A stretch of DNA of 64,000 nucleotides from Closterium sp. NIES-65. Taxonomy: Eukaryota > Streptophyta > Zygnematophyceae > Desmidiales > Closteriaceae. The stretch is from the NCBI GenBank assembly GCA_948144175.1, contig CANXME010002275.1:5018501-5082500 (forward strand), in the 5' to 3' direction. Shown here one piece after another: positions 2,252 to 43,330 of the stretch. Both the position numbers and the translations under genes were made by a program. Positions within the stretch are counted from its first letter, which is position 1, and each line of letters starts with the position of its first letter. Under the pieces are notes generated by a model. The model did no database searches and had not been told where the DNA came from. It saw only the letters and a program-made list of their open reading frames with translations.

Positions 2252-4859
2252 GCTCCTGGTGCTGCAGGGGGTTCTGGAGCTACTGGAGGTGCTGCTGGAG
2301 GTGGTGCTGGAGGTGTTGCTGGAGCGGGTGCTTCTTCTGTGGGGTACTTGTGCTGTCCCTGCTGTTTCTGGCGTCGCCACGCGGCCCCGACCGTACTTCG
2401 TTCCGCTCCTGCAGCAGGTTCTTGGTCTTACACCTTCTCCTGGTCCTCCTCCTCCTCCCTTAGAGGGTCCACAGCCTGTCCAGTCCCAGTCACAGCTACA
2501 GCCTGCCTCTCCTTTGCCTGCTCCTTCTCCCTACGCTGGTCGGACTAGAGGTCTTACTGAGCGTCGTGAGCCTGCGTCTCGTCCTGCGTCGCCTGTCCGT
2601 CCTGCACACACTAGTGGTCGCGGTTCGCGTCAGCGTCCTCCTCCTGTCCCTGGCACGCACCGGATGTCTCTACGTCCGTCCACTTCCTCTGCGTGCCCCT
2701 TTGCCTTCTCCTCCTTCTTCCTCTCTTCCAGCTCTTGCCGACCCGGAGTCGGACTCTCTTCGTGCTGCCAGTCCTACTGTCACGCGTCTCCTTGCTACTG
2801 CTGTCACTGACCCTTCTTTCGAGTCGTCTGCTGCGTCTGCCCTTGTCACTGAGCTCGTCGACTTTGCTGCGCGCTGTCGTCTAGACTACGCAGCTAGTCT
2901 TGTCGCTGAGTCTGAGTCTGCCATTCCTCCGTCCGTCGCGGGTGAGTGTGCCCTTAGCACAGACGTCCTTGAGGACAGGCAGGAGGAGTTCCAGTGTCTA
3001 GCCGCCGCTTCACCTCATCTCGCATCTGTACTGCTCGCCCCTGAGGGAGACCCGGATGCACTAGACATCCCAACTCCGCGCTCTTACGCGGAGGCAATAG
3101 AGGGTCCCTACTCCTCTCAGTGGCAGGTAGCTATGGATGCAGAGATGGCTTCCTAGAAGTCCACAGGCACCTACATTGACGCTGTTCCCCCTCTTGGGGC
3201 GAACATAGTCAGTGGCATGTGGATTTTCAGGGTGAAGCGGCCACCGGGTTCTCCGCCTGCCTTCAAGGCGCGTTACGTGGCTCGTGGCTTCAGTCAGCGG
3301 CAGGGAGTTGACTACTTTCAGACCTTCTCCCCCACCCCGAAGATGAGCACTCTTTGGGTACTGCTGCACGTTGCTGCTCACCGTGACTACGAGCTGCACT
3401 CCCTCGACTTCAGCACAGCTTTCTTGCAGGGCAGCCTGCACGAGGAGATCTGGCTGCGTCGCCCACCTGGCTTCACTGGGTCTTTCCCTCATGGTACCCA
3501 GTGGAGTCTCCGGCGTCCAGTCTACGGTCTTCGCCAAGCGCCACGTGAGTGGCACGACACACTGAGGACTACGCTGGCTGCACTTGGGTTTGCTCCTTCT
3601 ACTGCCGACCCGTCGCTGTTTCTGCGCACCGACACCTCTCTGCCGCCGTTCTACATCCTCGTGTACGTCGACGACTTGGTCTTTGCCACAGCTGACACTG
3701 CTGGACTCGCCTATGTGAAGTCCGAGCTGCAGAAGAGACACACGTGCACTGACCTGGGTGAACTGCGCAGTTACATTGGCTTGCAGATCACCTGGGACAG
3801 AGCACGCCGCACCATTACCCTGACTCAGTCACACATGGTGCAGCAGGTCCTTCAGCGCTTCGGCTTCACGTACTCCTCGCCTCAGGCCACTCCTCTGCCT
3901 ACTCGCCACTCACTCTCAGCTCTGCCTTCGGATGAGTCCGTAGAGTCGAGTGGTCCGTATGCAGAGCTTGTTGGCTGCCTCATGTACCTGATGACCTGCA
4001 CACAACCTGACCTTGCATACCCTCTTAGCATTCTCGCACGCTATGTTGCTCCTGGGAGACACCGACCAGAGCACATGGCTGCAGCGAAGAGGGTGTTGCG
4101 CTACTTGTGCAGTACATCGGGCATGGGGCTAGTGCTTGGAGGGCGCAGTCCAGTGGTCCTCACTGGGCACGCGGACGCTTTTTGGGCTGACGACCAGGCT
4201 ACGCAGCGGTCGTCACAGGGTTACACCTTCAGCCTTGGTTCCTGCTCTGTCTCGTGGCGAGCTACCCGCTCGTCTTCTGTTCTCGGCTCCAGTTGTGAGG
4301 CTGAGATCTACGCCGGGGCTATGGCTGCTCAGGAGCTTCGCTGGCTCACCTACCTGCTGACCGACCTTGGAGAGCCGCCTCGTTCTCCCCCAGTCCTGTA
4401 CGTAGACAACAAGGCCATGCTGGCCTTGTGTCGAGAGCAGCGACTGGATCATAGGACAAAGCACATTGCTCTCCGCTAATTTCTTGCTCGTGAGCTACAG
4501 CAGCGTGGACAGTTGCGACTTGCGTACGTGGCCTCTGAGGCCAACACTGCTGATGTCTTCACCAAGGCACTTGCGCCTTGTGATCATCAGCGCTGCTGCA
4601 CGCAGCTGGGTCTTGTACCTCTCTTGCCTCACTTGCTCACTTCTTGACCTTGCTTGTACTTTTACCTATATATACTCTTGCTCTTGCTTGCTTGCCTCTT
4701 GTATATCTCTATATATGATCTTGCATGTGAACTGGCCTTCTGGCCTTTGAACTTGTGCTCGGAATGTGTGGTGACTTTGTGATCCACCCTGAGCTTTGCT
4801 TTGCTTTGCTTGACTGGTCTTGTGACCCCTTGTTCTCCCCCACTTTGCCTATGGGGGTG

Positions 4860-8341: not shown

Positions 8342-11300
8342 ATGGCCACGCTTCTGCGTCGCGTCGCGGGCGATTTCAGACGGAGTAGTGGCGCGTCTGG
8401 CGCCGTGAACCGCGCTGTCGGGTCGTTCCAGAGCGGCTTTTCCGCGCATCCGCGCAGTCTCCTCGATGTTCTCGCGCTTCGATGGGTTAGTCATGCGGTA
8501 GACAGGGCCTTGGGTAAAACGATTCCGGAAGAACGCGCTAGACACGAATACAGTGTAACTTCGTTGCGCGCAGTCTCCTCGATGTCCTCGCGCTTCGATG
8601 GGTTGGTCTCACAGTAGTTGCTTTCGTGAGACCGCTTCTGCTGGAACCCGTTTTTGTGATCTCGCGACGCGATGAGATCACTTCACGTTTGTGATCCCAT
8701 TACGAACGTTCTTCAATGGGCCCTTGATGTTGTCGAGGTTTGTTTGTGCTTTTTGTGATTTTTTTTTTTTTTTTTTTTCCATTCATTTCACAAAGACTAA
8801 AAAAAATACGGGGCACACCAGGCTCAACCTCTTCAGCAATCTCCGCCGCGCCCGCCGCCATATCTCCATCCCGCCGTTCCTCACTCGTCGCGCCCATGCG
8901 CCCCTTTTCCCCGTAATCCCCCTTTTCCCGTCCTCAGCGCGCGCTGGTACTAACGAAGCACACGGGAAAGGGGGAAAAGAGGGGAGGGGGGGAGAGCTCC
9001 GCCGCGGCCCCACTATCCCCTTTTTTCGCGCCCCCCCTCCGCTCCCCCCTTCCCCCCACCCCAGGCCAGCACGCTGGTGGTGGCGGAGCACACGGGGAGG
9101 GGCGCAGGGGGCTCCGCCGCCGCCCTGAAGCCGCCCACGCTCTCCCGCCCGTCACGCCTCCCCCCATTTGTCCTCTTTCCCTGTCCCCCTGTCCCGTCCC
9201 GCTTATCCCCCTGCCCCTACTCCCCACTCCGCAGGCCAGCACGCTAGTGGTGGCGGAGCACACGGGGAGGGGCGCGGGGGGCTCCGCCGCCGCCCTAAAG
9301 CCGCCCACGCTGTCCGCAGTGGCGGCTGCACGGAAGCTTGGCGGACCCGTGGCCGTGCTGGTGGCGGGGAGTGGCGACGCGGTTGCTGACGTGGCAGCTG
9401 CTGTTGCGAAGATTGAAGGGGTGGATGAGGTGGGTAATTAATTTCAAGATATTATAGAAACATCACAATAATCGTGACTTACTTGAAACCTTGGAATCGA
9501 AAAACGTTTGTGAGTACAATTATCACTCATACACTAGGCTGCCGAAGGGAAGTAATGGCATGCCCTGCCTGTCCTCAGCGCTTCCGTTCCTTATCCCCAC
9601 CTCCTTCCCATGTCATATTTCTCAGGTGATTACAACAGAGATTCTTTTGAGTTGACTCAAAAGTCACCTCGCTTACGTTCCTTATCCCCACCTCCCTCCC
9701 ATGTCATATTTCTCAGGTGATTACAACAGAGAGCCCCGCCCTGGACCACGCCCTGCCCGAGCCCCTGGCGGCGCTACTGACAAACCTCGCCACTCAGCGG
9801 TCTTTCTCGCACGTGCTCGCCGCCTCGTCCACCTTCTCCCGGAACGTGCTGCCACGTGTCGCCGCGCTATTGGACACTGCGATGGTGTCTGATGTGGTTG
9901 AAATCGTGGATGAGAAGACTTTTGTGCGGTAATTGGGAGGGGAAGGGAGGGGTGCGGTAAGGGGAGGGTGAGGGTGGTGGTATATTTTTTAGGATCAGGG
10001 AAATGGGGGACGGGGGAGGGGGAAGAGGGGGGGAGAGGAGGGGAGAGGGCGAACGGTTTGTGCAATAGGAATTTTGACGGCGAGAGTTGGCCTTCTTCGA
10101 GGCGCCTCAAAAATTGCAATAGGAAGTTTGAGGGCGAGAGTTGGCCTTCCCTTTCGAATCCAAAGGGTGAGACGACCTTCACTCGGTGAGAGGAGAGAGG
10201 GCAGAGGGAGGTCGGGGGGTGCGGTGACGGGAGGGGAGGAAAGGGGAAATGGAGGGAGGGGTGCAGTGAGGGGAGGTGAAGGGCGATGATGTATTTTTCA
10301 GGCCTCCTGCCCCACTCCCCCTTCTCCTTTGTTCCTCCTTACACCCTTTCCCCCCCTCCGCCACACCCCAGCCCAATTTCTGCAAGGAACGCTCTTGCCA
10401 CGGTTTGCTGCTCCACGCTCACCCTTTATTCCCCATTGTCCTCTCTGCTTCTTCTTTTCTTCCCCCCTTTCCCCCCTCCACAGTCCAATCTATGCAGGGA
10501 ACGCACTTGCTACAGTACAATGCTCCACCCCCTCCTCTGCCGTCCCAAGTCTCCTCACAATCCGCGCCACCTCCTTCCCTGCCTCCTCCTCCTCTGAACC
10601 CACCACCGCCCCCAAGACCACGCCTTTCGACTTCCAAGGTACGCTCTAGACTGACACAGTGCGCTGCTCCATTCCTTCCCCCGCCACCCCAACGCTGCTC
10701 ACAGTCCGAGCCACCTCCTTCCCTGCTGCCTCCTTCTCCTTATGCTCCATGTAGACACGTTAGGCATGCTTCATGTAGACACGTTAGGCATGCTTCATGT
10801 AGACACGTTAGGCATGCTTCATGTAGACACGTTAGGCATGCTTCATGTAGAAACGTTAGGCATGCTTCATGTAGACACGTTAGGCATGCTTCATGTAGAC
10901 ACGTTAGGCATGCTTCATGTAGACACGTTAGGCATGCTCCATTTAGACACGTTAGGCATGCTCCATGTAGACACGTTAGGCATGCTCCATGTAGACACGT
11001 TAGGCATGCTCCATGTAGACACGTTAGGCATTCTCCATGTAGACTCGTTAGGCATGCTCCATGTAGACACGTTAGGCATGCTCCATGTAGACACGTTAGG
11101 CATGCTCCATGTAGACACGTTAGGCATGCTCCATGTAGACACGTTAGGCATGCTCCATGTAGACACGTTAGGCATGCTCCATGTAGACACGTTAGGCATG
11201 CTCCATGTAGACACGTTAGGCATGCTCCATGTAGACACGTTAGGCATGCTCCATGTAGACACGTTAGGCATGTTCCATTCCAGCATGCTTACTTTCCTCC

Positions 11301-12453
11301 CAACTCAGCTCAATGTGCGTCTCCCTCCTAACCCAAAATCTACATGTAGAGATGGTGTTTTTGAGACGTCTCAGAAATGCCCTTTCCTCCCAACTCAGCT
11401 CAAGGTGCTTCTCCCTCCTTGCCCAAAATCTGCCCGTCACAGTTAGACACGTCTCAAGATTTTTGAGACGTCTCAAAATACCCCTCCTCTGCTCATTTTC
11501 AGCGCGCTCCCCTCCCGACTTACCCAGAGGTCCGTCTCCTTCCTTGGCCAGAAGTGCTTTGAGACGTCTCAAACCACTTCTTCATACATGTCTCCTTCCT
11601 TGGCCAGAAACCTGCCAGTCACGTTTGCGTATCCTTCCACCCCTTCCTTCCTTTCTCCCCCCCCACTCCCCTGTTCTCCCACCCCTTCTTCCCCCCATGA
11701 TCCCCAGGCCCCCCAGCTGAAAAGTCTTCCTGGGTCGGGCAGGAGTTGCGGGCAGCTGACCGACCGGACTTGGGCAGTGCAAAAGTTGTGATTGCCGGCG
11801 GGCGGGGGCTGAAGAGTGAAGAGAATTTCAAGCTGCTGGAACAACTAGCAGACAAACTGGGAGGGGCAGGTAAGAAAGATTGACAGTGAATGAAACACCA
11901 AAAGCGCGGAATCAACTAAGCGAATCAATAAACTCCTGCCCTAGCTGGAAGAAGATCTTGCCCTTGCTGCCTGGACGTATGCTCAACCACAACTACACTC
12001 TCCCTTTTCCATTGCTGTAATCCTCTCCTGCCCTTTTTGCCCTTCTTGCCAGTGGGAGCCTCTCGGGCAGCTGTGGACGCAGGTTACGTAGCCAACGACC
12101 TGCAAGTCGGGCAGACCGGAAAAATCGTCGCGCCAGACCTGTACATGGCGTTTGGAATTTCGGGCGCGATTCAGCATCTGGCAGGCATGAAAGATTCCAA
12201 GGCGATCGTGGCCGTTAACAAGGATCCAGATGCTCCGATCTTCCAGGTAACAACTCAAAGCACTCTGCTTTTTCTCTCCCCCATTTGAATCCGAAGCACA
12301 TGCTACAGTCCGTTTTTTGTTGATTCCAAAATGATCGTGGCCGTTAACAAGGATCCAGATGCTCCGATTTTCCAGGTCGCGGATTACGGGCTGGTGGGCG
12401 ATTTGTTTCAAGTGCTGCCCGAGCTCCTAGAGAAAGTTCCTGCCAAGGCCTAA
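8342..12453 (+). CDS. ETFA: Electron transfer flavoprotein subunit alpha, mitochondrial
   Basis: Alpha subunit of the matrix ETF heterodimer, which takes electrons from acyl-CoA and branched-chain/lysine-catabolism dehydrogenases and passes them to ETF-ubiquinone oxidoreductase. Seven exons join in phase: 8342-8485, 9235-9429, 9717-9928, 10484-10638, 11717-11869, 12053-12246 and 12376-12453, giving 376 residues. Exon 1 encodes an Arg/Ser-rich mitochondrial presequence ([16 protein letters not shown]). STLVVAEH starts the mature domain [13 protein letters not shown] is in exon 4, and the FAD-binding domain II spans exons 5-7 with [58 protein letters not shown] and [13 protein letters not shown]. 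All expected motifs are present and the total length fits. The gene is tail-to-tail with the GRAS gene. Its introns hold many degraded copies of its own exon edges and a 24-bp tandem array. Confidence 0.95.
8566..8610 (+). repeat. Second copy of ETFA exon 1 end plus splice donor
   Basis: About 45 bases repeat 8451-8495, the end of exon 1 with its donor (CGCTTCGATG then GGTTAGT versus GGTTGGT), with two or three differences, 115 bases downstream inside intron 1. Confidence 0.85.
8760..8779 (+). repeat. Poly(T) run in ETFA intron 1
   Basis: About 19 consecutive T. It could be a relic of a reverse-inserted poly(A) element or simple slippage. No flanking element is recognised. Confidence 0.7.
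8937..9150 (+). repeat. Two degraded copies of ETFA exon 2 start inside intron 1
   Basis: 9064-9150 repeats the acceptor and first ~85 bases of exon 2 (true copy 9235-9320; CCAGGCCAGCACGCTGGTGG) with few changes, then diverges where exon 2 continues. A much more decayed copy is visible at 8937-9016 (GCGCTGGTACTAACGAAGCA ... GCTCCGCCGC). The order decayed, less decayed, true exon suggests repeated tandem duplication at the same edge. Confidence 0.8.
9585..9716 (+). repeat. Tandem copy of ETFA exon 3 acceptor edge with palindrome between copies
   Basis: The block from CGCTTCCGTTCCTTATCCCC through the acceptor TTTCTCAG into exon 3 (GTGATTACAACAGAGA) occurs twice, about 9585-9642 and 9668-9733. 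The copies are separated by the palindrome at 9644-9663. Only the second copy continues as coding exon. Confidence 0.88.
9644..9663. repeat. Dispersed palindrome, TTGA centre
   Basis: CTTTTGAGTTGACTCAAAAG: nine-base perfect arms around a TG centre. It sits exactly between two copies of the ETFA exon 3 edge. Related palindromes are at 10097, 11358, 11461, 11558, 16956, 17099, 17161, 17221, 17283, 17606 and 17644. Confidence 0.85.
10050..10157 (+). repeat. Duplicated intronic segment around palindrome, ETFA intron 3
   Basis: GTGCAATAGGAATTTTGACG ... GAGAGTTGGCCTTC (10060-10095) recurs as TTGCAATAGGAAGTTTGAGG ... GAGAGTTGGCCTTC (10113-10149). The separator TTCGAGGCGCCTCAAAA (10096-10112) is a degraded member of the palindrome family with core GAGGCGCCTC. 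Confidence 0.8.
10364..10424 (+). repeat. Degraded copy of ETFA exon 4 start in intron 3
   Basis: CCCCAGCCCAATTTCTGCAA then GGAACGCTCTTGCCACG resembles the acceptor and first 60 bases of exon 4 (CCACAGTCCAATCTATGCAG at 10478 onward). It keeps an AG acceptor but has lost the reading frame. Confidence 0.8.
10653..10740 (+). repeat. Degraded copy of ETFA exon 4 second half in intron 4
   Basis: Downstream of exon 4, this stretch resembles exon 4 bases 10530-10600 (CGAGCCACCTCCTTCCCTGC against CGCGCCACCTCCTTCCCTGC). Exon 4 therefore has a decayed copy on each side. The 24-bp array starts right after it. Confidence 0.75.
10744..11279 (+). repeat. 24-bp tandem array in ETFA intron 4, about 22 copies
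   Basis: The unit is about CATGTAGACACGTTAGGCAT plus GCTC or GCTT. The first nine units carry GCTTC and the later ones GCTCC, so homogenisation has happened in two blocks. Single variants occur (AAACGTTAG, ATTTAGAC, ACTCGTTAG). Being a multiple of three and lacking stops in some frames, it produces long spurious frames on both strands. Confidence 0.97.
11293..11625 (+). repeat. Duplicated segments separated by GACGTC-centred palindromes
   Basis: TTTCCTCCCAACTCAGCTCA ... CCCAAAATCT occurs at 11291-11341 and 11385-11432, separated by TTTTTGAGACGTCTCAGAAA (11358-11377). GTCTCCTTCCTTGGCCAGAA occurs at 11533-11552 and 11589-11608, separated by TTTGAGACGTCTCAAA (11558-11573). A further exact palindrome TTTTGAGACGTCTCAAAA lies at 11461-11478, beside a degraded one (ACACGTCTCAAG) at 11446. 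Confidence 0.85.
12193..12377 (+). repeat. Duplicated exon end that bounds ETFA intron 6
   Basis: The last 54 bases of exon 6 and the following GT (12193-12248, from GATTCCAAGGCGATCG to TTCCAGGT) recur at 12322-12377 with few changes, 129 bases downstream. The intron starts after the first TTCCAG and ends with the second TTCCAG. The second copy is spliced out although it would still encode the same residues. See the finding on intron origin. Confidence 0.92.
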
Positions 12454-13406
12454 AACGCAGAGCACCCACTCAGTAAGGCACAACAGAAGCATATTTAGTA
12501 CATTATCCTTCTTGGAATCTGGACTTTTTTTTGGAGGGACTTTTATTCCTGTTTTGTTGGCTGGAACATCACATTTCCGTTACTAAGGAAGGATGGCATC
12601 TTTGTCCTGAATTATTACTAGTTGTCCTACCCTTCGAACAACACTGCTAGACATGATATGATATGACCCCCTACCAGCAGAATGAATGAGGAAGGGATGA
12701 AAGACTGCAACACAACTGCTGCAGAAGCTGAGCTGTCAAGCCACTCACATGTGAAACCCCTGCAGCACTATCCTTGGAACAACACTGCTGGATATGAAAG
12801 CCCTCCAGGACCACCATGAGAGAGGAGGCAATCAAACACTGCAGAAGCCGAGCTGTCAAGCCATTCACATGTGAAACCCCTGCAGCACTATCCTTGGAAC
12901 AACACTGCTGGATATGAAAGCCCTCCAGGACCACCATGAGAGAGGAGGCAATCAAACACTGCAGAAGCCGAGCTGTCAAGCCCTTTGCATGTGACCGGTG
13001 CAGCGCGGTGCTACCCGGTACCTCCAGGCGAGATGTTGAAACGGCTGGAAAAAATAAAATAATGACAGAGCACAAAAACCAAAGGGCCCAAGAGACTGGA
13101 AACACTTGCTGCTGCTGCTGCTGCTGCTGCTGCTATTGAGACGGCACAAAGGGTTCGAGAGACTGGAAACAATTGCTGCTGCTGCTGCTGCTGATTTCCT
13201 CACCCTGTGTGCTGCTTCAGACATCCCTATCACCTGGTCCTGCTCCTGCCCTGCTGCCCTGCTGCTATGCTACCCTGCTGCTATGCTACCCTGCTGATCC
13301 TGCTGCTGCTGCTACTCCTCTGCTGTCCTGCTGGCTATTCTATGTTAGCCTGCTGCTCTAGTGCTCTGGTATTTTTTGCTGCTCCGCTGCCCTGCCGTAC
13401 TAGCTC
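12454..13406. other. 3' intergenic region between convergent ETFA and GRAS
   Basis: Contains both 3' UTRs, a 120-bp tandem repeat (12721-13000), two CTG runs (about 13109-13135 and 13172-13193) embedded in a smaller duplication (GAGACTGGAAACA... twice), and CTGCC-rich sequence to 13400. No additional gene is recognised. Confidence 0.6.
12721..13000. repeat. 120-bp tandem repeat, about 2.3 copies
   Basis: Starts at 12721, 12841 and 12961 with GCAGAAGC(T/C)GAGCTGTCAAG. The last 60 bases of the first two units are identical. The third unit breaks off after about 40 bases. Confidence 0.95.
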
Positions 13407-16400
13407 TCATTTCCTCCCATCTCCTCCCCCGGGGGTCCAAGCAGAGGCACCCAGAATCGACTGACCATTCCACAGCAGGCGCACGCCCCCCTGCGGATGC
13501 CTCTCAACCGCAAACCCTTTAGGATACGGCGCGATCAGCTCTCTCAACCCCCACATGCTCCTCTTGCTGTACGGCCGTGCCGCCACCCCCAACCTCCCCA
13601 TCCGCGTGTGCATCTGATCCAACCTCTCTGCTCGCACCAGCCTCTGCATGCCTTCGCACGCCACCAGGTTCACCATTTCCCGTGCGAGAACGAACTCCTC
13701 GAAGCCGCGGCGGCCAAAGGAGAAGCGCGAGGCGAGTGCGTCGTGGGAGGCGAAGATGTTGTGGAAGAAGAGGAGAGCGTCTTTGAAACGGTGGAGAAAG
13801 AAGGGTTGTTGTTGGTTGGAGTCCCACTCGACTAACGACACCACCTTGGGGTCTAGCTGCATGATTGCCTGAAGGGAGGAAGGGAGGGGATGGGGGGAGG
13901 GAGTTGTAAGAATGTGTTCGATCAAAGAGGAGGTTCACCATTGCCCTCGCACGCCACCAGGTTCACCATTGCCCTCGCCAGCATCAACTCTTCAAAGCCG
14001 CGGCGGCCGAAGGAGAAGCGCGAGGCGAGTGCGTCGTGGGAAGCGAAGATGTTGTGGAAGAAGAGGAGAGCGTCTCGGAAGCGAGAAAGGAAGAAGGGCT
14101 GCTAGAGCGACTCTAGCAGGCTGCTAGAAGGGCTGCTGGTTGGAGTCCCACTCTACTAGAGCGACCACTTTGGGTCTAGCTGCATGATCGCCTGGAGGAG
14201 CAAGGGGGGAGGAATAGCAGTGTGCGCGGAGGGAAAGCTCACCAACTGAGGCATCAACTGCATGATCATCTTAAGGCAGGGGTAAAAGAGGTGGGTGGTT
14301 GACAAAGCCATATTAACACCGCTCCCCCTTTACCTCACCACTCTCTCTTACCTTTATTGCTGTATCCTTTGGGCTGTGCCTGAGAACTGTAGAATCTGCA
14401 ACACACGCCAGCCGCCCAGCCACGTTCACCAGCACACACTCGCCCCGCTCCACTCCAATCGCCGCCGCCCGCAGCGTCTCCGGCGCCGCCTCGACCCGGG
14501 AAAAGGACAAGCTCACGCCGCACTCCTGCGCCGCCCGCGCCAGCTCAGCCTGCAGGAAGGCCGCAGGAAGCTTCGGGCCAGTCCCATAGGGATGACCGAA
14601 AGGAGGGTCTACAGCTGTGAATCGGATCCGGAGAAAGCAGGGAGGGATGGGAGAAGGCGCAGAGGTACAAGGACCTTGCAGGGGTGTGGGAGAAGGGGAT
14701 GACGAGGGTGAGGGGGAGTGGTGGGCGGAGGTTGGCTGGGACGGAGAAGGGTGGGAGGCGGATGGTGATTTGGAAGCATGGCTGGTGGTAGCAGCAGTAC
14801 TGTCACAGATACCAACGCTGCTGCTGCTGCTGCCGCTGCTGCTGCTGCTGTTATGGCTGTTGATGGTAACAGCTGCTGCGGCCATTCTTTTCCGGGCAGC
14901 TGCCGCCAGCTGGCGGATGACGATTGGCCACTGGCCTGCCCACATGGCAAAGTCAACGATGTGGATGTTGGACTCATCCTCTGCCGCGTCCTGTGGAGGG
15001 AGAAAGGGAGAGGGTAGGTGGAGAGGGAGTGAGTAGGGAGAGTGTCGAGTGGGTTGCACGAATGGCAAAGCCGACGATGTGGGTGTTTGGTTCATTCATC
15101 CTCTGCCGCGTCCTGTGGAGGGAGAAAGGGAGAGGGTAGGTGGAGAGGGAGTGAGTAGGGAGAGTGTCGAGTGGGTTGCACGAATGGCAAAGCCGACGAT
15201 GTGGGTGTTTGGTTCATTCATCCTCTGCCGCGTCCTGTGGAGGGAGAAAGGGAGAGGGTAGGTGGAGAGGGAGTGAGTAGGGAGAGTGTCGAGTGGGTTG
15301 CACGAATGGCAAAGCCGACGATGTGGGTGTTTGGTTCATTCATCCTCTGCCGCGTCCTGTGGAGGGAGAAAGGGAGAGGGTAGGTGGAGAGGGAGTGAGT
15401 AGGGAGAGTGTCGAGTGGGTTGCATGAATGGCAAAGCCGACGATGTGGGTGTTTGGTTCATTCATCCTCTGCCGCGTCCTGTGGAGGGAGAAAGGGAGAG
15501 GGTAGGTGGAGAGGGAGTGAGTAGGGAGAGTGTCGAGTGGGTTGCACGAATGGCAAAGCCGACGATGTGGGTGTTTGGTTCATTCATCCTCTGCCGCGTC
15601 CTGTGGAGGGAGAAAGGGAGAGGGTAGGTGGAGAGGGAGTGAGTAGGGAGAGTGTCGAGTGGGTTGCACGAATGGCAAAGCCGACGATGTGGGTGTTTGG
15701 TTCATTCATCCTCTGCCGCGTCCTGTAGAAATAGAGGGGGCTGATGGTGGGGAGACGGAGAGGACAAGGTAAGGCTGAAGAACGGGGGGTGGGGGGGTTG
15801 GGGGGTGGGGGGGGTTTGGTGCACTAACGGCGTGTGAAGTCGACGATGTGGGTGTTTGGACTCATCCTCTGCCGTGTTCTGTAGAGGGAAAGGGGTGAGG
15901 GGAAGGGGGGCAGGGAGGGAGGGATGAGGGGGACAAGGAGGGGTGAGGCGGGGGAGAGGGGAGTTGCACGATGCCCACACGGCAAAGTCGACGATGACGG
16001 CCAGTGAAGTCAACGAAGCCAACGATGTGGGTGTTTGGCTTATCCTCTGCCGCGTCCTGCAGCAAGGGAGGAAGAGGGGTTTGTGGAAGGGAGGGGAGCC
16101 GGGGAGAGTGTGGGAGGGGGTTTGCATTGCACCAATGGCAAAGTCGACAATGTGGGTGATGTTGGTCTCGTCTTCTGCCGCGTCCCTGCAGAAACAGGAG
16201 GAGAATGAGGGGAGACGAAGGTGGGGAATGAGAGTGGTTGAGGGGGGTTCATCAGTAACAAAGTCAAAACAAGTTCAACTTTGTGAATGTTGGCGTGGAG
16301 CTCTGCTTTGTCCTGCAGTGAGAGGGAGAAAGAGGGGAGGAGGTGGTAGGGGAGGGGTGGGTGGAGGAAGAGTGAGTGGAGGATTAGAACGAAAGGAAAA

Positions 16401-19400
16401 TCAGCAGTATCACACATTCCTGACCATCACTGGACACTCCCTACCACCACTCTGCACGACTTGCCAGCACTCTGCAGCACCTACCGGCCATCTTCACTCC
16501 CCACCACCACTCTGCACGCCTTACCACCGCCCACCGCTCAGCACACCTCACCACCGCTCTGTACGCCTCACCAGCATGGCACAGGCCAGGGCGGAGTAGC
16601 AGAACTGCAGCGTGGGGCAGTGCGCTGCAAACGCCAGAATCAACGCTTCCTCCTGTGGTGGAGAGGGGTGGAAAGGGATGGAGAGGGACGGAGAGGGATG
16701 GAGAGGGACGGAGAGGGATGGAGAGGGACGGAGAGGGATGGAGAGGGATGGAGAGGGATGGAGAGGGATGGAGAGAATTGGAGAGGGAGCAGGTGGTGGG
16801 CGACAGCAGGTGCAGCACCATCAACTGTGCCCATCAACACCAACATCTCACTGTCCTCGCACTGTCCTCGCACTGTCCTCGCACTGTCCTCTCACTGTCC
16901 TCTCACTGTCCTCTCACTGTCCTCTCCCTGTCCTCTCACCTCAGGTGCGCGGTGACTTTTGAGTCGACTCAAAAGACAGCAGGTGCAGCACAATCAACTG
17001 TGCCCATCAACACCAACATCTCACACATCTCACTGTCCTCTCACCTCAGGTGTGCGGCTCAAATATGCGATCTAGTCTAGTCCATCCCCAGGGACGACTA
17101 TTGAGGCGCCTCAAAAGTCGGCTCAAATATGCAATATAGTCTGGTCCATCCGCAGGGCGCCTTTTGAGGCGCCTCAAAACTCAAATATGCGATCTAGTCT
17201 AGTCCATCCTCAGGGACGACTATTGAGGCGCCTCAAAAGTCGGCTCAAATATGCAATATAGTCTGGTCCATCCGCAGGGCGCCTTTTGAGGTGCCTCAAA
17301 ACTCAAACATGTGATCTAGTCTGTCCCCACGGCGCCTACAGCCCTCTTGGCGAGGGCAGTGAGGAGGTAGTGTGAGACAGAGGCGAGGCAGTAGCAACAT
17401 CAACATCTCACCACCACCTCACCTCAGGTGCGCGGCTCAAATATGCTATATATTTCATCCCAAGGGCGCCTGCAGCCCTCTTGGCGAGGGCAGGGAGGAG
17501 GTAGTGTGAGGCAGCAGCAGCATCAAGTGTCCCCTTCAACACCAACACATCTCCAACACCTCAGTACCATCTCTTACCTCAGGCGCGCGGCTCAAATATG
17601 CGTCTGCTTTTGAGTCTACTCAAAAGCCGCGTGTAATGAGTCTGCTTTTGAGTCGACTCAAAAGCAACACCTCAGTACCTTCTCTTACCTCAGGCGCGCG
17701 GCTCAAATATGCGATCTAATCTGTCCCCAGGGCGCCTACAGCCCTCTTGGCGAGGGCAGGGAGGAGATAGACAGCAGCAGCATCACCATCAGCTCTTGAG
17801 GCATCACCATCAGCTCTTGAGGCATCACCATCAGCTCTTGAGGCATCACCATCAGCTCTTGAGGCATCACCATCAGCTCTTGAGGCATCACCATCAGCTC
17901 TTGAGGCATCACCATCAGCTCTTGAGGCATCACCATCAGCTCTTGAGGCATCACCATCAGCTCTTGAGGCATCACCATCAGCTCTTGAGGCATCACCATC
18001 AGCTCTTGAGGCATCACCATCAGCTCTTGAGGCATCACCATCAGCTCTTGAGGCCTCACCATCAGCTCTTGAGGCATCACCATCAGCTCTTGAGGCATCA
18101 CCATCAGCTCTTGAGGCATCATGCATAAAACCATCTCACCTCGGGAGCGCGGCTGAGATAGGCAATGTAGTCAGTTCCTAAGGCGCCTGCAGCCCTCTTT
18201 GCGAGGGCAGTGAGCAGGTAGTGTGAGACAGCAGCAGCAGCATCAACCTTTCCCCCTCAAACACCAACATCTCACCGCCCTCTCACCTCGGGAGCGCGGC
18301 TGAGATAAGCAATGTAGTCGGTACCCAGAGCGCCTGCAGCCCTCTTGGCGAGGGCAGTGAGCAGGTAGTGTGAGACGCGCTGCATGGGCGTGCCGTAGGG
18401 GGAGGAGAGCGGACGCAGGCGACGAGTCAAAGACACCATTCGCGGCTGTCGCGGGGAGGCACATGGGGAGAGGGGGATGGGCAGAGCGAGAGGCAGAGGC
18501 ATGTAGTGAGGAGGTAGTGTGAGACGCGCTGCATGAGCGTGCCGTAGAGGGAGGAGAGCGGACGCAGGCGCCTGGTGAGCCTGACCATACGCGGCTGTAG
18601 GGGGTTGAGTGGAGCAGGGGGACACAGGGGGGAGGCAGGCAGTGAGCAGGTAGTGTGAGACGCGCTGCATGGGAGTGCCATAGGGGGAGGAGAGCGTACG
18701 CAGACGGCGAGTCAAAGACACCATTCCCGGCTGCGTGAGGGAAGCACAGGGGCTACAGGGGGCACAGGGAGAGGAAAGGGGGGGGGAGAGGCAGGCTGTG
18801 AGGAGGTAGTGTGAGACGCGCTGCATGGGCGTGCCGTAGGGGGAGGAGAGCGGGCGCAGGCGCCGAGGCAAAGGCACCATTCGCGGCTGTGGGAGGGAGG
18901 CACAGGGGCCACAGGGAGAGGGAGAGGGAGAGGGAGAGGCGGGCAGTGAGGAGGTAGTGTGAGACGCATTGCATGGGCGTGCCATAGGGGCAAGGGAGCG
19001 GGCGCAGACGCCTGGTGAGACTGACCATACGCGGCTGTAGGGGGTTGAGTGGAGCAGGGAGACACAGGGGGGAGGCAGGTGGTGAGAAGGTAGTGAGAGA
19101 CTCGCTGCAGGGGCGTGCACACTCTCCGAGTCACCAAACTCACTCACGGCCCACGGCACCGCCTCCACCCTCTGCTGCTCTACCACTCACCCACCCTCAC
19201 CTGGTCCCCAGTGGCCACGGCTTCAGCCAGTTGAAGCAGGTCCTGTGGCAGCATCTCACCAGAAACCTGCCCACTTTTACCCACCTGCCTAACCCACACT
19301 ACGGATGCACCCACCTGCTCGCAACTCCCCTCACCTCACCTGGTCACCTGTGGCCACGGCTTCAGCCAGCTGCAGCAGGCCTTGTTGCAACCCCTCATCC

Positions 19401-22400
19401 GACACCCGCCCACTCGCCATGTCGCGCACACTCTCCGTGTCACCAAACTCACTCACTGCCCTCGGCACCGCCTCCACTCTCTGCTGCTGCTGCTGCTCCA
19501 TCACTCTCGGTTGAATCACTCTTGGTTGAATCACTCTTGGTTGATGGTTCTGCTTCGGCTGAATTGCCCTCAGGTGAGGTACTCCTGGCTGATTCACATT
19601 CAAATTCACACTTGGATTTACACTCGGCTGATTGGATCTTAGTTGGTTGGTTTGTTGCTGCTGCAGCTGAGGTCCTGCTCTTAGGGCCCCTCTCAGCCGC
19701 TGCTCCAATGCCGACGCGCCACCTGGCGCGCCTCCCACTGCCCTGACTGCCAACGCATCTGTCAGCGTGTGCTGCTGCTGACGTGTGCTTGTATTGAAGG
19801 GGCTTATACTGAACGGGTCCCCTGCTGCCCCGTCTGCTGCTCTGCCTGCTGCTGCTGGGACTACCCCAAATCGAGTACCTACTCCTAAACCTGCTCCTGC
19901 TCCTACCCCTACTCCTGCTCCTACTCCTACTCCTGCCCCTGCTCCCGCTGCTCCTGCTGCTGCTGCCTGGGTTGCGGAATCAAGTACTCGCATCACTGAA
20001 TGGTCAACGGAGTATTTCCTGGTATCTGCAAAAGAACCTGGAGGGAACAGCACGAGATCTGTCCCTGCTGCTGACCCTGCTGCTGCTTTATCAGAGCTAG
20101 ATCTCGCCACAAGAGATGCTAGTTCAGACGCCAAGTCCCTTCCTCTTGGGGGAGGGTTTTCAAGCGCCACTTTACCATCAACTTGCATGGGCCTACCTCT
20201 TTCATCATAACTGGTTCTCGCCACAAACGATGCTAGTTCAGACGCCAAGTCCCTCCCTCCTCCTGCTGCCCTATTCTGAAGCGTTTCGTTGATATCAACT
20301 TGCATGAACCTACTGCTCTCACCACTCGCAGCTGCAGCGGCGGCGGCAGCACCAGCAGCAGCCGCAGCAGCAGTGCTATCCCCACTACCACCACCACCAC
20401 GAATACCACTCAAACCACCACCACCACCACTACCAGCATCAACACAAGCAGCAGTACTAACATCACCCCTACCACCACCGCTCCAGCCCTGGCCCGTCAT
20501 ACCCACTACACCGAACCTGCTCCTCTCTCCCGAACCTACTGCCGAACCACCAGACCCTACAGCAACCCTATCCTCGTTAGAAGCACCCCGTGAGAACCCT
20601 GTAATAGCCTTTTCCAGAGCCTCCATCTCTGCTGCGCGCATAGAGTCAATGCTAGCAAAGGGGAACTCTAAATCGAACTGGGACGCCTGTAGCGGCCGCT
20701 TGGACGGCTGTAGCGGCCGTTGCGCCGGCTGTAGCGGCTGGTTTGCCTGCTGCTGCTGACTCTGGTGCCGATTCTGCTGCTGGTATACATGCTGCTGCTG
20801 CTGCTGCTCCTGCTCCTGCTGCGGTTGCTGCTGTTGCTGATTCTGCGGCTCAATCTGTTGGTCCTGACCTTGCTGCACTAGCTCTGTATCCTGTCCCGAC
20901 AGCTGCCGTCGCACCAGCGCAAGCAAAAGCGAATCCGTCATCCTACCTCCTCCTTCCTGCTGCACTTGCTGCTGCGCCTGCTGCTGCTGCTCCTGCCGCT
21001 GCATCTGCTGCTGTTGCACTTGCTCCTTTCGCTGCATCTGCTGTTGCACTTGCTCCTTTCGCTGCATCTGCTGTTGCACTTGCTGCTCCTGCACCTGCTC
21101 ACGCCGCTGCATCTGATGATGCTGTGATTGCGGCCGCCCTTGCAGCGCCTCCCATAGCTGATCGTGCTGCTGCTGCTGCTGCAGTTGCTGCTGCGCCTGC
21201 TGCTGCTGCTGCTCCTGCCGCTGCATCTGATGTTGCTGTTGCGGCCGCCCTTGCAGCGCCTCCCATAGCTGATCGTGCTGCTGCTGTTGTTGCTGCTGCA
21301 GTTGCTGTTGCGGCTGCTGCTGCAGCAGCAGCTGCTCTAACTGCTGCTGCTCTACCTGCTGTCTCTCGTCTGTTTGCTTCTTCTGCAGGGGCTGCGGCTG
21401 CGGTTGCTGCTGCTGCTGCTGCTGCTGCGGATTTGACTGCGCTCTAGACACCTGCTGCTTCTGAAATCTAACCGCACTGGCCAGACGCTTAGCTAAGTCC
21501 ACTGGTTTCCTGCGAGGCCCAAGCTCTAATCCCCCCGAACCACTAAGTACTCCTCCCTCCTTGACGCCACTACTACTGCTACTGCCACCAACAGCAGCAG
21601 CAGCAGCAGCAGCAGCAACAGTAGGGCCGGTGCTGTCCGCGTAAGTGGTGAGGGCGGGTGTAGCGATTAAGGGAGATGCAATGGCGTGAGACTCGATGAA
21701 GGTTGGAGCGGCAACGGTGGGAAACGCAATGGAGGGAGGGGTTGCGGCGACAGGGGACTCGATGAAGGGGGGAGAAGCAACAGCAGGAGACGCAAGAGCG
21801 GGAGAAGCAGCAGCAGCAGCAGCAGCAGCAGCACCGTCGCCAGCACCCCCAGCAGCAGTAGCACCTGTTACCGACACTTGCGGCGACCCGGACGACGCTC
21901 GAATCGACGGTGACGATCGCTGCTGCTTGCCGCGCTGCTGCAGGCTCGAGCTCAGCGGCGCGCTCAGCAAGTACATGTTCCACTCCGCCGTAGCCGCTAC
22001 AGCAGCCACAGGCGCTACAGCCGCCACAGGAGCTACAGCCGCTACAGCCGGCAGAGTCGCTACAGTGGGCATAGCCGCTACAGCCGGCATAACCGCTGTA
22101 GCCGTTACATCCTCAGCCACGCGGTTACTACTGCTTCCTCCCTCTCTTCCACCCTCTTCTCCTGCTCCTGCGCCGCCTCCCCACATGTTTCCAAAAACCC
22201 CTTTGCTCCGCTTACCGACTCGACCTCTGCCGTCGCCGCCGCCCAATTCGCCTGATCCGCCGCCCAGCCCTCCCCCTTCAGGATCTGCGGAGGGGAACAC
22301 CGGCGGAGCAACGAATTCCTGCCAGCCGAGATCATGTGGTAACGCCGCCAGAGGCTGCTCCAGACTCGGATCCCCCCCTAGCCCTTGCCCTTGCGCTTGC

Positions 22401-26493: not shown

Positions 26494-27663
26494 ATGGCTG
26501 AGCATATCGACGTCACGACTCTCACGCAGGAGCACTTGAACGATCTGTTGCGACAAATCCGCGAGAGCGCCGAAGAAATCGCGACGTTGACGGCACAACG
26601 CTCGTCCCTGCAAAATCATCTCACACGAGCACAACAAGCGCAATCTCAAGCACCTGGCATTCCGGAACAGCCCGCACCACAAGCATCACAACACGGAAGT
26701 GTGGGGCAACCCGCGAGCGCGGCCAGTGATGGTGTCGTCCGCCCCGACGGAGACGAAGACCACGGCACGACACACCTCGGAACGACGAATGCGGCCCGAA
26801 GCCAGCCACGCGTCACAATTTCAGCACCAACCGACGATTCGGCACTGCCGTCACCGATGCCGCTAAAGCCGCAGCGTCCGCCATGCTTCGATCTCAGTCA
26901 AAGGGGTAGTCCTACCGTTCAGACGTGGTTGTTCACGATGAACGTGCTTTTCGACGCCAACTACGTCTCGGAGGATACGGTGAAAATCCGCTACGCCGTG
27001 TCTCTACTGCGAGGACCCGCCATGGATTCGTGGCTCATCATCGTCACGAAGCCGATGGACTACGCGAATCTACCGACACGGGAAGGACAAACCAGACCCT
27101 GGGCGCCGTCGTACTTCGTGGAGGTGCCCCAGTATCGCACGTTGGACGCGTGGTGCGCAGGTCTGTGCACTCGTTTCGAGCCAATCGCGGCTTCCATGGC
27201 GGCGCGACAGAAGCTCCGCACTTGGCGCCAACTCGGTTCCGTCCAAGACTACAAGAGCGGATTTCTGGCGCTATGCGAGCAGGTGGGATGCATGCACGAG
27301 AGCGAGCGCATCGACCGCTACATCGGCGGCCTGAACCAGGACATTGCTCATGAAATCCAGCTTCGCGGCGTCACGGACTTTCAAGAAATTCTCGCTATGG
27401 CGGAGAAACTTGACTTCTTCCGCCGACCGAGACCGGGGTCCTACGGAAGCAGCCATTGGGGACATTGGTCTCGTGGGACGAACGAGGGCGCTACGATACG
27501 TGCCGTCGCCGCAAATGCCGCTGCTGTACCATTCAAAGGGCGCTGCTTTGCGTGCAATCGGCCGGGACACCGCAAGAGCGAATGCCCAGAGAACGCTAAA
27601 GGAAATGGGGAAGCTGAGCAGCAGAAACAGACCAAGCAGCAGGGAAACGCTGGAAGTCAGTAG
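26494..27663 (+). CDS. Gypsy Gag polyprotein
   Basis: Structural capsid-nucleocapsid protein of the gypsy element, 389 residues and uninterrupted. The N-terminus has a predicted coiled-coil-like stretch (HLNDLLRQIRESAEEIATL), then a Pro/Ala/Gln linker. The retrotransposon-Gag capsid region lies about residues 130-310 (VQTWLFTMNVLFDAN, WRQLGSVQDYKSGFLALCEQ). A canonical zinc knuckle CX2CX4HX4C (CFACNRPGHRKSEC) is at about residues 350-363. It is the only intact gene left in this element, and whether it is expressed is unknown. Confidence 0.88.
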   Translation: MAEHIDVTTLTQEHLNDLLRQIRESAEEIATLTAQRSSLQNHLTRAQQAQSQAPGIPEQPAPQASQHGSVGQPASAASDGVVRPDGDEDHGTTHLGTTNAARSQPRVTISAPTDDSALPSPMPLKPQRPPCFDLSQRGSPTVQTWLFTMNVLFDANYVSEDTVKIRYAVSLLRGPAMDSWLIIVTKPMDYANLPTREGQTRPWAPSYFVEVPQYRTLDAWCAGLCTRFEPIAASMAARQKLRTWRQLGSVQDYKSGFLALCEQVGCMHESERIDRYIGGLNQDIAHEIQLRGVTDFQEILAMAEKLDFFRRPRPGSYGSSHWGHWSRGTNEGATIRAVAANAAAVPFKGRCFACNRPGHRKSECPENAKGNGEAEQQKQTKQQGNAGSQ

Positions 27664-31274: not shown

Positions 31275-34200
31275 ATGGCTACCCCCAGTGTCCTTACCTT
31301 TGATGCTGAGGGTCGTGCTATTGACTTTGAGGTCTGGGTTGACGACCTCCAGCTTTTCCTACAGTCCGATAGGGCAAACGGACTCTCCTTGTTCGATCTC
31401 ACCTCTGGTGCCTTTCCTGCCCCGCCTACTGATGCTGACAGCACTGTTCGCTCACAGTAGGCCACACGCGATGTGGCTGCCCGTCTTGCTGTGCGTCGCC
31501 ACTTACCAACCACTGAGCGTGCGCACTCTAGTCAGTACAAGAGTGCTAAGACCTTGTACGACGCTGTAGTTGCACGCTACTCTTCCCCTGCCACTCCTGC
31601 CCTTAGCCGCCTCATGCTGCCGTACCTGTTCCCTGACCTTGCTGCCTTTCCCACAGTCGCTGACCTCATTACGCACCTTCGCACTAGTGACACTCGCTAC
31701 CGCGCTGCGCTTCCTGCTGAGTTCTGTGCCAAGAACCCCACCCCCATGTACATCACCCTCTACTACATAGTCACCCGACTCCTAAACTCCCTTCGCTTAG
31801 TCAGGGACCACTTCTTCTCAGTTTGCCCCACCACTCTCACCGTTGACCTCCTCGAGGAGCGCCTCCTAGCAGCAGAGAAGAGCATAGTCGTTGTAGGAGC
31901 CTCTCGTGGTGACCCTCGCACCCCCGTCTTTCAGGGGTGTTCCCCCTCCCCCCTCTTGCCCTCTATTGCTTCTGCTGCTGCGGCCGACCTCGTTGGCTTT
32001 GAGTCGGTCGGCGCTGCGTCTGCCCCTAGCGGGAGACCCCGCACCGGCAAGGGCAAGGGGGGCAAGGGCGCTAGAGGGGCTGGCGGGGGCGGTGGAGGTG
32101 GTGGTGGAGGCAGTAGAGGGGGTGGGGGTGGTGGTGGGAGTGGTGGCGGGGGTGGAGGTGTAGGTGGCGGCAGTGGAGGCGGAGGAGGCGACGGCGGTGG
32201 CAGAGGGAGCAGAGGTGGCAAAGGCGGCGGAGGTGGCGGAGGCGGCGGTGGCAGCGGCGGAGCTGGTCGTGGCTCTGTGCAGAGGAGTGGTTCCGGTGGT
32301 GGTCCGCGCCAACAGGAGCAGCGCACTTGTGAGACCCCGTCCCACCAGCAACTTCGTGATTGGTACACTGGGCATCAGCGAGGTGGGGGTACTGGTCACT
32401 GCTCCTCCGTCCTTCGTACCGGCGACCGCGCTGGTGAGCAGTGCGGGGGCTCGCACTCCACCCAGCGCTGCTTTGGCCGCCTGACGGACGCGTGGCGTCA
32501 CCAGTTCCCTGACGCCACTGAGATCCCTTGCTAGGGAGAGCTGTCTAGGGCGGGGGTTGCTATCTTTGATCTTGATTATGATGCTATTCTTGCTGCCATG
32601 TATGCTATGTCTACTAGTGATGAGGGTGACTGTTACCTGTGTGTTCCGCCTGACCCGAGAATTGAGGCTGCTGCTCTAGGTGCTGGTGAGGCTGCTGCTC
32701 TAGGTGCTAGTGCGTCTGCTGCCCCAAGTGCTGGTGAGGGCTCTCTCAGGTACCACGTCGGCTCAGGCCTTATACACCTTCACCCTTGACTCGGGTGCTT
32801 CCCGCTCCTTCTTTCGAGACCGCACCACGCTTACGCCACTTAGTCGGCCGGTTGCGGTCTCCCTGGCGGACCCCTCTGGGGATCCTGTCCTTCCTTGCTT
32901 CTCCACTGTCTTGCCGTGTTCGGCAGCCCCCTCTGGTACCCTGTCCGGTCTCTACCTCCCCTCGTTCTCTACGAACTTGGTGAGTGGAGCTGATCTACAA
33001 GATAGGGTTGACCAGTTCACTCTTGCGAGTCAGCGGGTGACCCACTGCACGTGTGCTCGGACGCGCCGACACTTGGCCACGTTTACCCGTCGGCCGGGGT
33101 CGAGCCTCTACACACTGACTACTGAGTCTCCTCCGATTGCTGAGTCTGGTCAGGTAGCTGCATCGAGTAAGGTGTTTGCTGCAGCGTCCAGGTTTGGTCC
33201 TGAGTCTGCTCCCTGCTCGTGTCGTCTCCTGTCCCACCAGACTCTCCTTTGGCACCACCGCCTTGGTCACCCCTCCCTGCCTCGTCTCCGAGGCATGGCT
33301 TCCCTATGTCCTTCTCTATGGTCTCCCCCGGTCCCTCCCTCCCCTCCCTCTGGGGCCTGCCCCTACCTGCATTCCCTGCGTCGAGGGGCGGCAGCGCGCC
33401 GCCCCTCACTCCTCCGAGTTTCCTCTGACAGAGGCTCCGCTGCAGACTATTCACATGGACATGTGGGGCCCCGCCCGCGTCCGTGGCTAGGGTCAAGAGT
33501 GTTACTTCCTGTTGGTGGTTGACGACTCCTCGCATTACACCACGGTGTTCCCCTTGCGCCGCAAGGGTTACGTCACTGAGGTGTTGATCGACTGGATCCG
33601 CGCAGCTCGTCTCCACCTCAGAGAGAGTTTCGGCTCGGACTTTCCTGTTCTGCGTCTGCACTCTGACAGAGGCGAAGAGTTTTCCTCTGCCCGTCTGGGA
33701 GCCTTCTCTCGTGCACAGGGCATCCGCCAGACCTTCACTCTTCCGGCCTCTCCACAGCAAAATGGGATAGCTAAGCGCCGCATTGGCATGGTCATGGACG
33801 TCGCTCGTACGTCCATGATCCATGCGGCTGCCCCCCATTTTCTGTGGCCGTTTGCGGTTCAGTACGCAGCGCATCAGCTCAACCTTCAGCCCCGGGTCTC
33901 CTTGCCAGAGACCTCCCCCACCTTGCGGTGGACGGGGAAGGTTGGCGATGCGTCTGCGTTTCGGGTCTGGGTATCTCGTGCGTTTTTCCGCGACTTGTTT
34001 GCGAACAAGGTGTCCCCCCGTGCTGTTCCCTGCGTCTTCCTTGGCTTCCCCCCTGACACGCCTAGGTGGCAGTTTTACCACCCCACCTCGCGCTGTGTTC
34101 TGTCCTACCAGGTTGTCACCTTTGACGAGTCGGTGCCTTACTATCATCTCTTCCCCTACCGCACTGCACCCCTCCCCCCGCCGGCGCTATTCCTTGCGCC

Positions 34201-34957
34201 AGGTCCTCACCCGGTAGACCCCCTCCCCCCTCAGGGTCGTGCCCCATCACGTGTGTCCCAGGTAGACGCAGTCAAGCCTGTCGAGGTAGCTGTTGACTCT
34301 GGTGCTGCTAGAGGTGCTGAGCCTGCGGGTGCCGGGTCTGGAGGTGCTGAGCCTGGTGGTGTGGAGCCTAGGGGTGCTGAGCCTGGGGGTGCTGAGTCTG
34401 GGGGTGCTGAGCCTGGGGGTGCTGAGCCTGGGGGTGCTGAGCCTGGGGGTACGGAGCTTGGGGGTGTTGGGTCTACTCGTGTGGCCTGTCGCGGTGCTTC
34501 GTCGAGGCGGGAGCTACTCTCTCCCCAGGAGCCGCGCAAGTGGTTTGCCCGGCGCTGGAGCCGTGCTGCTAGAGCTGGAGGTGCTACTGTTGCTGCTGGT
34601 CCTGGAGGTGCTCGTACTGGCAGTACTGAAGCTGCAAGGACTGGGGGTGCTACTGGGGCTGCTGGAGCTGGTCCTGCTGGACGTACTGCTAGAGCTGCTG
34701 GCGGTACTGGAGCTAACAGTCCTGCTGGAGCTAGGGTTGCTAGAGCTGCTGGAGCTGGAGCTGCTGGGGGTGTGGGCGCTGTTGGTACTGCTGGCGCTGG
34801 TGCTTCTGAGGGTGCTGGGGTTGGCGCTGTTGGAGCTGGAGGTACTACTGGCGCTGGTGCTGCCGCTGGGGGTACTGGTACTGTCCGTGTTGGTTCTGGA
34901 GGCGCTGCACGGCCGCGGCCGTACTTCGTTCCGCTCCTTGAGCAGGTTCTTGGTCTC
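31275..34957 (+). pseudogene. copia B Gag-protease-integrase remnant
   Basis: The Gag start MATPSVLTFDAEGRAIDFEV is conserved with E and G. Gag contains a glycine run of about 70 residues (about 32080-32270). The protease box DSGASRSFF is near 32795 and the integrase core covers about 33450-34150. Defects relative to copia G are TAG at 31458 (Trp), TAG at 32532 (Trp), a frame change near 32760, a frame change near 33300 and TAG at 33488 (Gln). The integrase and linker from 33512 to 34957 are open. RT and RNase H are lost at the inversion junction. Confidence 0.9.
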
Positions 34958-43198: not shown

Positions 43199-43330
43199 TG
43201 TGAGAATTGAAACGAGAATAGATGAACTATGAAATGAAGTGAGTACAAATATGAAACCCTAATTGGTTGTACCCCCTATGGGATACCCCACTATAGCCTA
43301 CACAACAGCATAAGCTATAATGTTCTGACA
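43199..43330 (-). repeat. 5' LTR of copia D
   Basis: 132 bp, near-identical to the 3' copy at 37226-37356. Confidence 0.93.

Follow-up and report, generated by a model that had tools for sequence, protein, structure and literature searches.

The window analyzed here is the whole 64,000-nucleotide stretch of Closterium sp. NIES-65 contig CANXME010002275.1 that runs from position 5,018,501 to position 5,082,500 of the forward strand. Two of its genes, ETFA and a GRAS gene on the minus strand, carry in their introns a family of short palindromes of the form TTTTGAG-NCGN'-CTCAAAA, and at seven places these palindromes stand between copies of a duplicated host segment. We consider the structure of the palindromes, their distribution in the genome, and their probable origin as inserts that duplicate their target.

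Palindromes and duplicated segments in ETFA and GRAS

Domain detection identifies the two genes, ETFA by its ETF and ETF_alpha (electron transfer flavoprotein alpha) domains and the GRAS gene by its GRAS domain, in agreement with a first-pass annotation made from the sequence alone. That annotation had also described twelve palindromes in which N and N' change together, and both statements are borne out. Twelve matches to the core pattern TTTTGAGNCGNCTCAAAA at no more than two mismatches, 4 of them exact, lie where it had placed them, whereas dinucleotide shuffles of the window (n = 100) yield 0, and in all twelve the bases that flank the central pair are complementary to each other. Re-alignment likewise recovered the segment-palindrome-segment arrangement at each of the seven places for which it had been claimed. 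A thirteenth copy, a decayed A-type palindrome that agrees with the pattern at 14 of 18 positions, lies at 11442–11459 and was absent from the earlier list; matches with four mismatches number 3 in the window against about 0.8 expected by chance. At no more than two mismatches, the 64-kb window holds no family member outside 9.6–17.7 kb, and none of the remaining palindromes detected across it belongs to the TTTTGAGNCGNCTCAAAA family.

The first site in ETFA consists of a segment at the end of an intron (9579–9641), a T-type insert (9642–9669), and a right segment copy that runs into the exon (9670–9732), the two segment copies being identical at 61 of 63 positions on re-alignment. The insert has its core at 9645–9662, with the central CG read as TG and the right arm GTCACCT kept. 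The next ETFA intron contains segments at 10061–10094 and 10115–10148 (32/34 identical) on either side of a G-type insert with a decayed left arm (10095–10114), placed by pattern match and alignment. Segment copies at 11292–11341 and 11382–11431 (46/50 identical) enclose an A-type insert with a long left arm at 11342–11381 (core 11359–11376), for which none of 500 shuffles gave a half-element similarity as good, the test string including half the core. Close by, an exact A-type palindrome at 11461–11478 is surrounded by a weak, older duplication (score 38; 1.0 in the anchored test). An A-type insert at 11554–11589 (core 11557–11574, right arm CACTTCTTCATACAT) then separates segments at 11534–11553 and 11590–11609, which align without a difference (20/20).

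In the GRAS intron, a segment that contains an 11-bp array (16802–16952) aligns to a right copy at 16975–17057 across a T-type insert at 16953–16974 (core 16957–16974). It is followed at 17058–17332 by a (segment-palindrome)4-segment array, in which five segments of ~36 bp alternate with four G-type palindromes whose cores lie at 17099, 17162, 17221, and 17284. Farther on, segments at 17554–17602 and 17665–17713 (48/49 identical) enclose an insert with two T-type palindromes (17603–17664; palindromes at 17608–17625 and 17646–17663). Between these sites lies a paralogous GRAS unit, 17395–17530, which in alignment crosses all three GRAS insertion points without palindromes and is their unoccupied counterpart.

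The letters outside the 18-mer at 9642–9669 and 11554–11589 (GTCACCTCG and CACTTCTTCATACAT) are arms that are also found at unrelated places in the genome, and those at 11342–11381 fit the same arm family. The association of palindrome and duplication in the window is strong, despite a high local background. In the interval 8.4–19.5 kb, a duplication test with a spacer of no more than 45 bases is passed by 6 of the 12 palindromes and by 8.2% of mock positions; with spacers of up to 65 and 80 bases, 7/12 palindromes pass in each case, compared with 15.2% and 22.7% of mocks, respectively.

Census of the family in the genome

The search covered the window's own genome (874,075,685 bases in 2,400 contigs). 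The pattern TTTTGAGNCGNCTCAAAA occurs exactly at 24,964 places, and the reversed-pattern control at 0; with any four-base centre allowed, the core occurs at 30,327 places and the reversed control at 4. A chance origin of the family is rejected on these controls together with the 0/100 shuffles of the window. In the exact search, N is A at 5,047 places, G at 5,851, and C at 4; the remaining 14,062, obtained by subtraction, comprise N = T plus unmatched pairs. All four places with N = C are copies of one 3-kb locus, 98.5–99.9% identical to one another; this locus is the sole place with the centre CCGG, and both sides of its centre differ together from the other types.

The bases beside CG are complementary in 86 of 91 unique contexts read in the fetched loci, and the search that allowed any centre returned self-complementary centres at 46 of the 50 places listed, the other four being one transition away, as would be expected of decay. 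A longer, 36-bp T-type form has 47 exact places in the genome. In fetched DNA and window combined, where the loci were chosen for the family, 112 of 125 palindromes of at least 14 bp belong to it. Independent insertions must be fewer than these places suggest, because the tested loci exist in at least two nearly identical copies.

Chance matches to the core in unrelated DNA behave differently. They were drawn from prokaryotic and viral contigs, at least 120 stretches in one scan and 11 in another. The bases beside CG are complementary in 30 of the 131 chance matches listed, as chance predicts, and no flanking direct repeat with a score of at least 40 was found at any of the 128 that had enough flank. 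Flanking repeats are thus not a consequence of the palindrome as such.

Anatomy of the palindrome

The copies read are palindromes centred on TTTTGAG-NCGN'-CTCAAAA, where N is A, T, or G; a rarer centre is AATT. The first-pass annotation had given its length as 18–22 bp, which is an underestimate: the arms extend beyond the 18-mer, and the 18-mer is the middle of perfect palindromes that reach 52 bp. Read outward, A-type arms consist of CTCAAAA, ~12 variable bases, and CACGTGGCT or a related sequence; farther out the copies no longer agree, and the arms can be traced to about 30 nt from the centre. T-type arms read CTCAAAAGTCACCTCGTTAC(C/T/A)ATGGCACACGAC and extend in some copies to 35–38 nt from the centre. 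Beyond these limits the letters disagree between the copies read, and no longer donor element was seen. Left and right arms stop at different points, often with one long and the other almost absent.

Within a copy, the left and right arms resemble each other more closely than either resembles the arms of other copies. In nine A-type copies, hand-picked for having two long arms, identity is 0.914 within a copy versus 0.502 between copies, and 0 of 20,000 random re-pairings gave a value as high as that within copies. A 14-mer from the outer arm has 1,839 places in the genome; of 20 such places chosen by hand, some of which lie in arrays, 13 have an exact core and 5 a decayed one. The two exceptions are L216, which stops at the centre without a left arm, and L228, an array with a deleted centre. 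The centre is thus the fixed point and the outer ends are variable, the reverse of an ordinary inverted-repeat transposon. Because the arm survey was confined to self-complementary centres, the centres counted in it are no evidence for self-complementarity.

At three loci, one arm is repeated in tandem within a copy, as a copying enzyme that restarted on its template would leave it; slippage is an alternative. At the 13 usable of 23 parsed sites, insert and segment share a mean of 1.15 letters at the junction, about 0.33 being expected, which does no more than hint at priming by short matches, the sites being few.

Flanking duplications across the genome

The first-pass annotation had proposed a genome-wide search in which each hit is tested for direct repeats on either side, and a test of this kind was applied to sampled copies, taken as the first places listed by each search. 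Fetched DNA and window hold 92 unique exact palindromes, from which 36 with a neighbour within 130 bp were set aside. An anchored flanking duplication (score ≥10) accompanies 50 of the 56 non-array palindromes that remain, 4 of which are in the window, compared with 48 of 150 mock positions drawn from the same fetched loci. When both gaps are limited to 30 bases, 40 of 52 genome copies and 87 of 400 mocks pass (Fisher p 6.6e-15). The duplicated segments at these 40 sites measure 16–178 bp, with a median of 57. At L164, for example, a perfect 34-bp palindrome has a 42-bp segment on each side.

Single sites have the layout segment-insert-segment with no palindrome outside it, which is not that of a minisatellite, where tandem copies occur without a non-repeated insert. 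Seven arrays were considered as well, and four of them (L156, L160, L203, and L212) have a segment at both ends; the left edge of L203 was judged by eye, its printed identity of 0.31 being owing to a shift. The array at positions 808–1536 of L210 (contig C43) contains 27 cores with an exact period of 27 bp, its unit consisting of a core and a single nine-base arm.

Loci with and without the insert

One locus is present in both states. A 900-base stretch of L149, on contig C14, carries one T-type and one A-type palindrome, and a second copy of this stretch lies on contig C975, 100, 99, and 94% identical in three overlapping blocks. At the first site, C14 has a 57-bp segment, a 21-bp insert, and the segment again, whereas C975 has one copy of the segment. 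At the second site, C14 has a 55-bp segment, a 40-bp insert, and the segment again, and C975 again has one segment copy. The copies of the 55-bp segment are identical to each other; those of the 57-bp segment differ at two places, where the left copy agrees with C975. Second copies of the same length and 99–100% identity exist for the ETFA stretch at window 9425–9960, L187, and L164, and the inserts at these three places are taken to be common to both copies.

Other duplications and repeats in the window

This genome duplicates local segments often. In the window, exon edges or coding-like stretches are duplicated without a palindrome, across spacers of 39–243 bp, at 9046–9315, 10348–10738, 13649–14209, and 19114–19488, and in the GRAS intron region at 17300–19150 one exon edge recurs as many partial tandem copies that read like SHYLLTALAKRAAGALGTDYIAYLSRAPEVR. 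At 12193–12377, the end of an ETFA exon (TTCCAG/GT) is duplicated around a 73-bp spacer, and the intron would span from the GT of the first copy to the AG of the second. At its start, this spacer is similar to an A-type half-element (one of 24 tests, p 0.002; the string includes half the core), and an intron created or lengthened by palindrome insertion is a possibility here.

The window also contains long minisatellites at 10742–11278 (24 bp × 22), 14944–15726 (122 bp × 6.5), and 17780–18121 (21 bp × 16). Copia-like retrotransposon domains (RVT_2, integrase core, SH3, and, in part, GAG-pre-integrase) lie at 3217–4479, 33512–34972, 43227–44714, and 50096–56092, and a gag with a zinc knuckle at 26494–27663.

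Origin of the inserts

Any mechanism proposed for these copies must explain four facts: a self-complementary centre, arms that match in a copy-specific way, variable truncation on two sides, and a long target duplication. The reading that we prefer, with a probability of roughly 0.6, is that the copies represent an ultra-short, high-copy, dispersed palindromic insert that would enter at staggered breaks. That insertion and target duplication occurred together is very probable. Of the explanations put forward in the first-pass annotation, the one that fits best is a tiny hairpin element that duplicates tens of bases of its target, given ~25,000 exact places, the flanking repeats, and one locus with and without the insert.

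Several observations weigh against this reading. The analysis brought to light neither an enzyme nor an RNA or master copy, no search having been aimed at any of them. Among the duplicate copies at four loci, 2 of 7 palindromes differ and 5 are shared, and only L149 has an unoccupied second copy. Were the two segment copies to recombine, one of them would be lost precisely, together with the palindrome, and because such a loss would look the same, the pair with and without inserts gives no direction on its own; we infer the direction of insertion from the existence of the family. The sampled copies are not a random sample, and 6 of the 56 (L137, L148, L174, L177, L184, and the palindrome at window 11461) have no close duplication. 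In three of the seven arrays, the segment does not stand at both edges, being absent from the right edge in L142 and from the left in L188; the third is L210. Finally, segment-spacer-segment duplications that contain no palindrome number at least seven in the ETFA and GRAS genes and also occur in the fetched genome loci.

In a second explanation, each site is a repair scar with captured filler: overhangs of a staggered break would be duplicated, and abundant palindromic DNA would be ligated or copied in, with no element machinery and no selfish spread. Palindrome-free duplications are common in the same region, the 87 of 400 mocks that pass speak for it too, and the variable outer ends resemble those of trimmed filler. 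However, the centre is kept, exact or decayed, in 18 of 20 arm fragments, which random fragments would not do; the arms match within a copy in the nine hand-picked cases; and a single family supplies 112 of the 125 palindromes in loci that were chosen for it. We regard captured filler as an unlikely origin, if one to be taken seriously. The break-repair scar that the first-pass annotation had suggested probably does describe how the duplication arises, but as a full account it ranks below an insert.

A third possibility is that the palindrome came first, its hairpin stalling replication so that the polymerase backs up across the adjacent segment and on its second passage leaves the hairpin out. 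Arrays with exact periods (27, 37, 42, 53, and 90) show that tandem expansion occurs at these loci, and the 6 of 56 sampled palindromes without a close duplication are allowed by such a model. Two coordinated jumps would be needed each time, however, and at two sites the unoccupied counterpart has the segment only once. Moreover, in the site at 9579–9732 the right copy enters a coding exon directly, where an earlier palindrome is unlikely. This order of events is improbable. A pure recombination signal, which had also been suggested, would leave both the extra copy of the segment and the pair of loci with and without inserts unexplained. An assembly or library artefact (a linker, adapter, or chimeric join) is very unlikely indeed: palindromes can arise in libraries, and the analysis rests on an assembly rather than raw reads, but ~25,000 places, decayed copies, diverged duplicates, many arm variants, and copies inside contigs and arrays, one of them in two ~100% identical ETFA stretches, speak against it.

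If the palindromes are inserts that enter at staggered breaks, a mechanism can be proposed in which both arms are copied from one template and joined at the four-base centre. We put this forward tentatively, its chances falling somewhat short of even. The strands of the target would be nicked tens of bases apart, and filling in of the overhangs would leave the segment between the nicks on both sides. Repair of breaks with protruding ends gives tandem duplications in mouse embryonic stem cells, according to the available text of PMC5730883. Each 3' end would then grow by copying one and the same short template, beginning at a variable position and continuing to the template end. The template could be an RNA or the arm of an existing palindrome, and the data favour neither; in the RNA version, it would be a short RNA with the 5' end NCGNCTCAAAA. 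Both ends would gain the same tail with a self-complementary four-base end, through which they could anneal and be sealed. The product would be a perfect palindrome whatever the template variant, with its centre kept, its outer ends variable, and the match between its arms renewed at each copying.

More doubtful still, though possible, is that the inserts form a new class of ultra-short selfish DNA without a body, in which both 3' ends of a staggered cut receive a copy of a 30–40-nt template and the self-complementary end joins the tails. Palindromy would in that case be the transposition mechanism and not a by-product, with matching arms re-created in every copy. Each insertion would duplicate tens of host bases, feeding arrays, intron growth, and perhaps new introns. 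If the preferred reading holds, palindromes, tandem duplication, and intron growth would be tied together by one testable process. Tens of thousands of insertions of ~20–60 bp, each with a duplication of ~57 bp, would so far have gone unseen, plausibly since repeat finders seek longer bodies and fixed, short target duplications. The inserts would then show how a sequence can spread that codes for nothing and has hardly any length. With duplicate loci that carry the insert and others that lack it, the mechanism can be tested directly.

Comparison with known systems

In miniature inverted-repeat transposable elements (MITEs) and other terminal-inverted-repeat DNA transposons, the outer ends are conserved and the target duplication is short, with a length typical of each family. 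Like MITEs, the inserts are non-coding, dispersed inverted repeats with a target duplication. Unlike them, they vary at their ends and are constant at the centre, and their target duplications are neither short nor fixed, ranging from 16 to 178 bp (median 57) and measuring 57 and 55 bp at the two sites of L149. Long and short interspersed elements (LINEs and SINEs) insert by target-primed synthesis, including twin priming, with variable target duplications, truncated copies, and synthesis on target 3' ends. The inserts share the target duplication of variable length and the truncated copies and, in the mechanism proposed above, would share the synthesis on target 3' ends. LINEs and SINEs, however, have a one-sided body with a fixed 3' end and truncation at the 5' end only, whereas the inserts are symmetric and truncated on both sides of a fixed centre.

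Two further groups are similar in part. Bacterial repetitive extragenic palindromic (REP) elements and bacterial interspersed mosaic elements (BIMEs) are short, palindromic, and high in copy number, as are the inserts, but they are bacterial, and we know of no long target duplications among them. Introners are whole introns, present in many copies in genes, that change intron content; the inserts measure ~20–60 bp and in the window lie inside introns.

In size and number, the inserts resemble the short palindromic repeats known from the organelles of Volvox carteri, which are described in the available text of PMC2670323 as 11–79 nt long, high in copy number, located in intergenic DNA and introns, and thought to be selfish. 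According to the same text, they have variable stem lengths, recurrent centres, and loops of 3–5 nt, and their nuclear copies are called inert. Both families are thus short, hairpin-forming, and high-copy, with arms of variable length. The Volvox repeats are organellar and looped, whereas the Closterium inserts are nuclear, loop-free, and placed between long direct repeats; an organellar origin of the window is contradicted by the ETFA and GRAS introns and a contig of >5 Mb. The terms "target site" and "duplicat" have 0 occurrences in the available text of PMC2670323.

Tandem duplications at staggered breaks share with the inserts a direct repeat of the stretch that protrudes between two nicks, as set out in the available text of PMC5730883, which cites Schiml 2016 and Vaughn & Bennetzen 2014. 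Filler in such repair is absent or unrelated from site to site, whereas here one family separates the segments in 40 of the 52 genome copies sampled, and the descriptions of PMC5730883 available to us include no recurrent palindromic insert of one family.

Six palindrome strings searched in papers gave no match, nor did the few best-ranked papers on palindromes with target duplications, palindromic or hairpin elements in green algae, filler DNA with tandem duplications, paired nicks, long target duplications, and introners, most subscription journals not being covered; the stem "palindrom" has 0 occurrences in the available main text of the Closterium genome paper (PMC10407611). Because the inserts lack the defining features of inverted-repeat transposons and of target-primed elements, and no literature match was found, we rate the insert class as categorically new, with the caution due to a class seen in one genome only. 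If built from two tails and without a body, such a palindrome insert would be a natural counterpart of paired prime editing.

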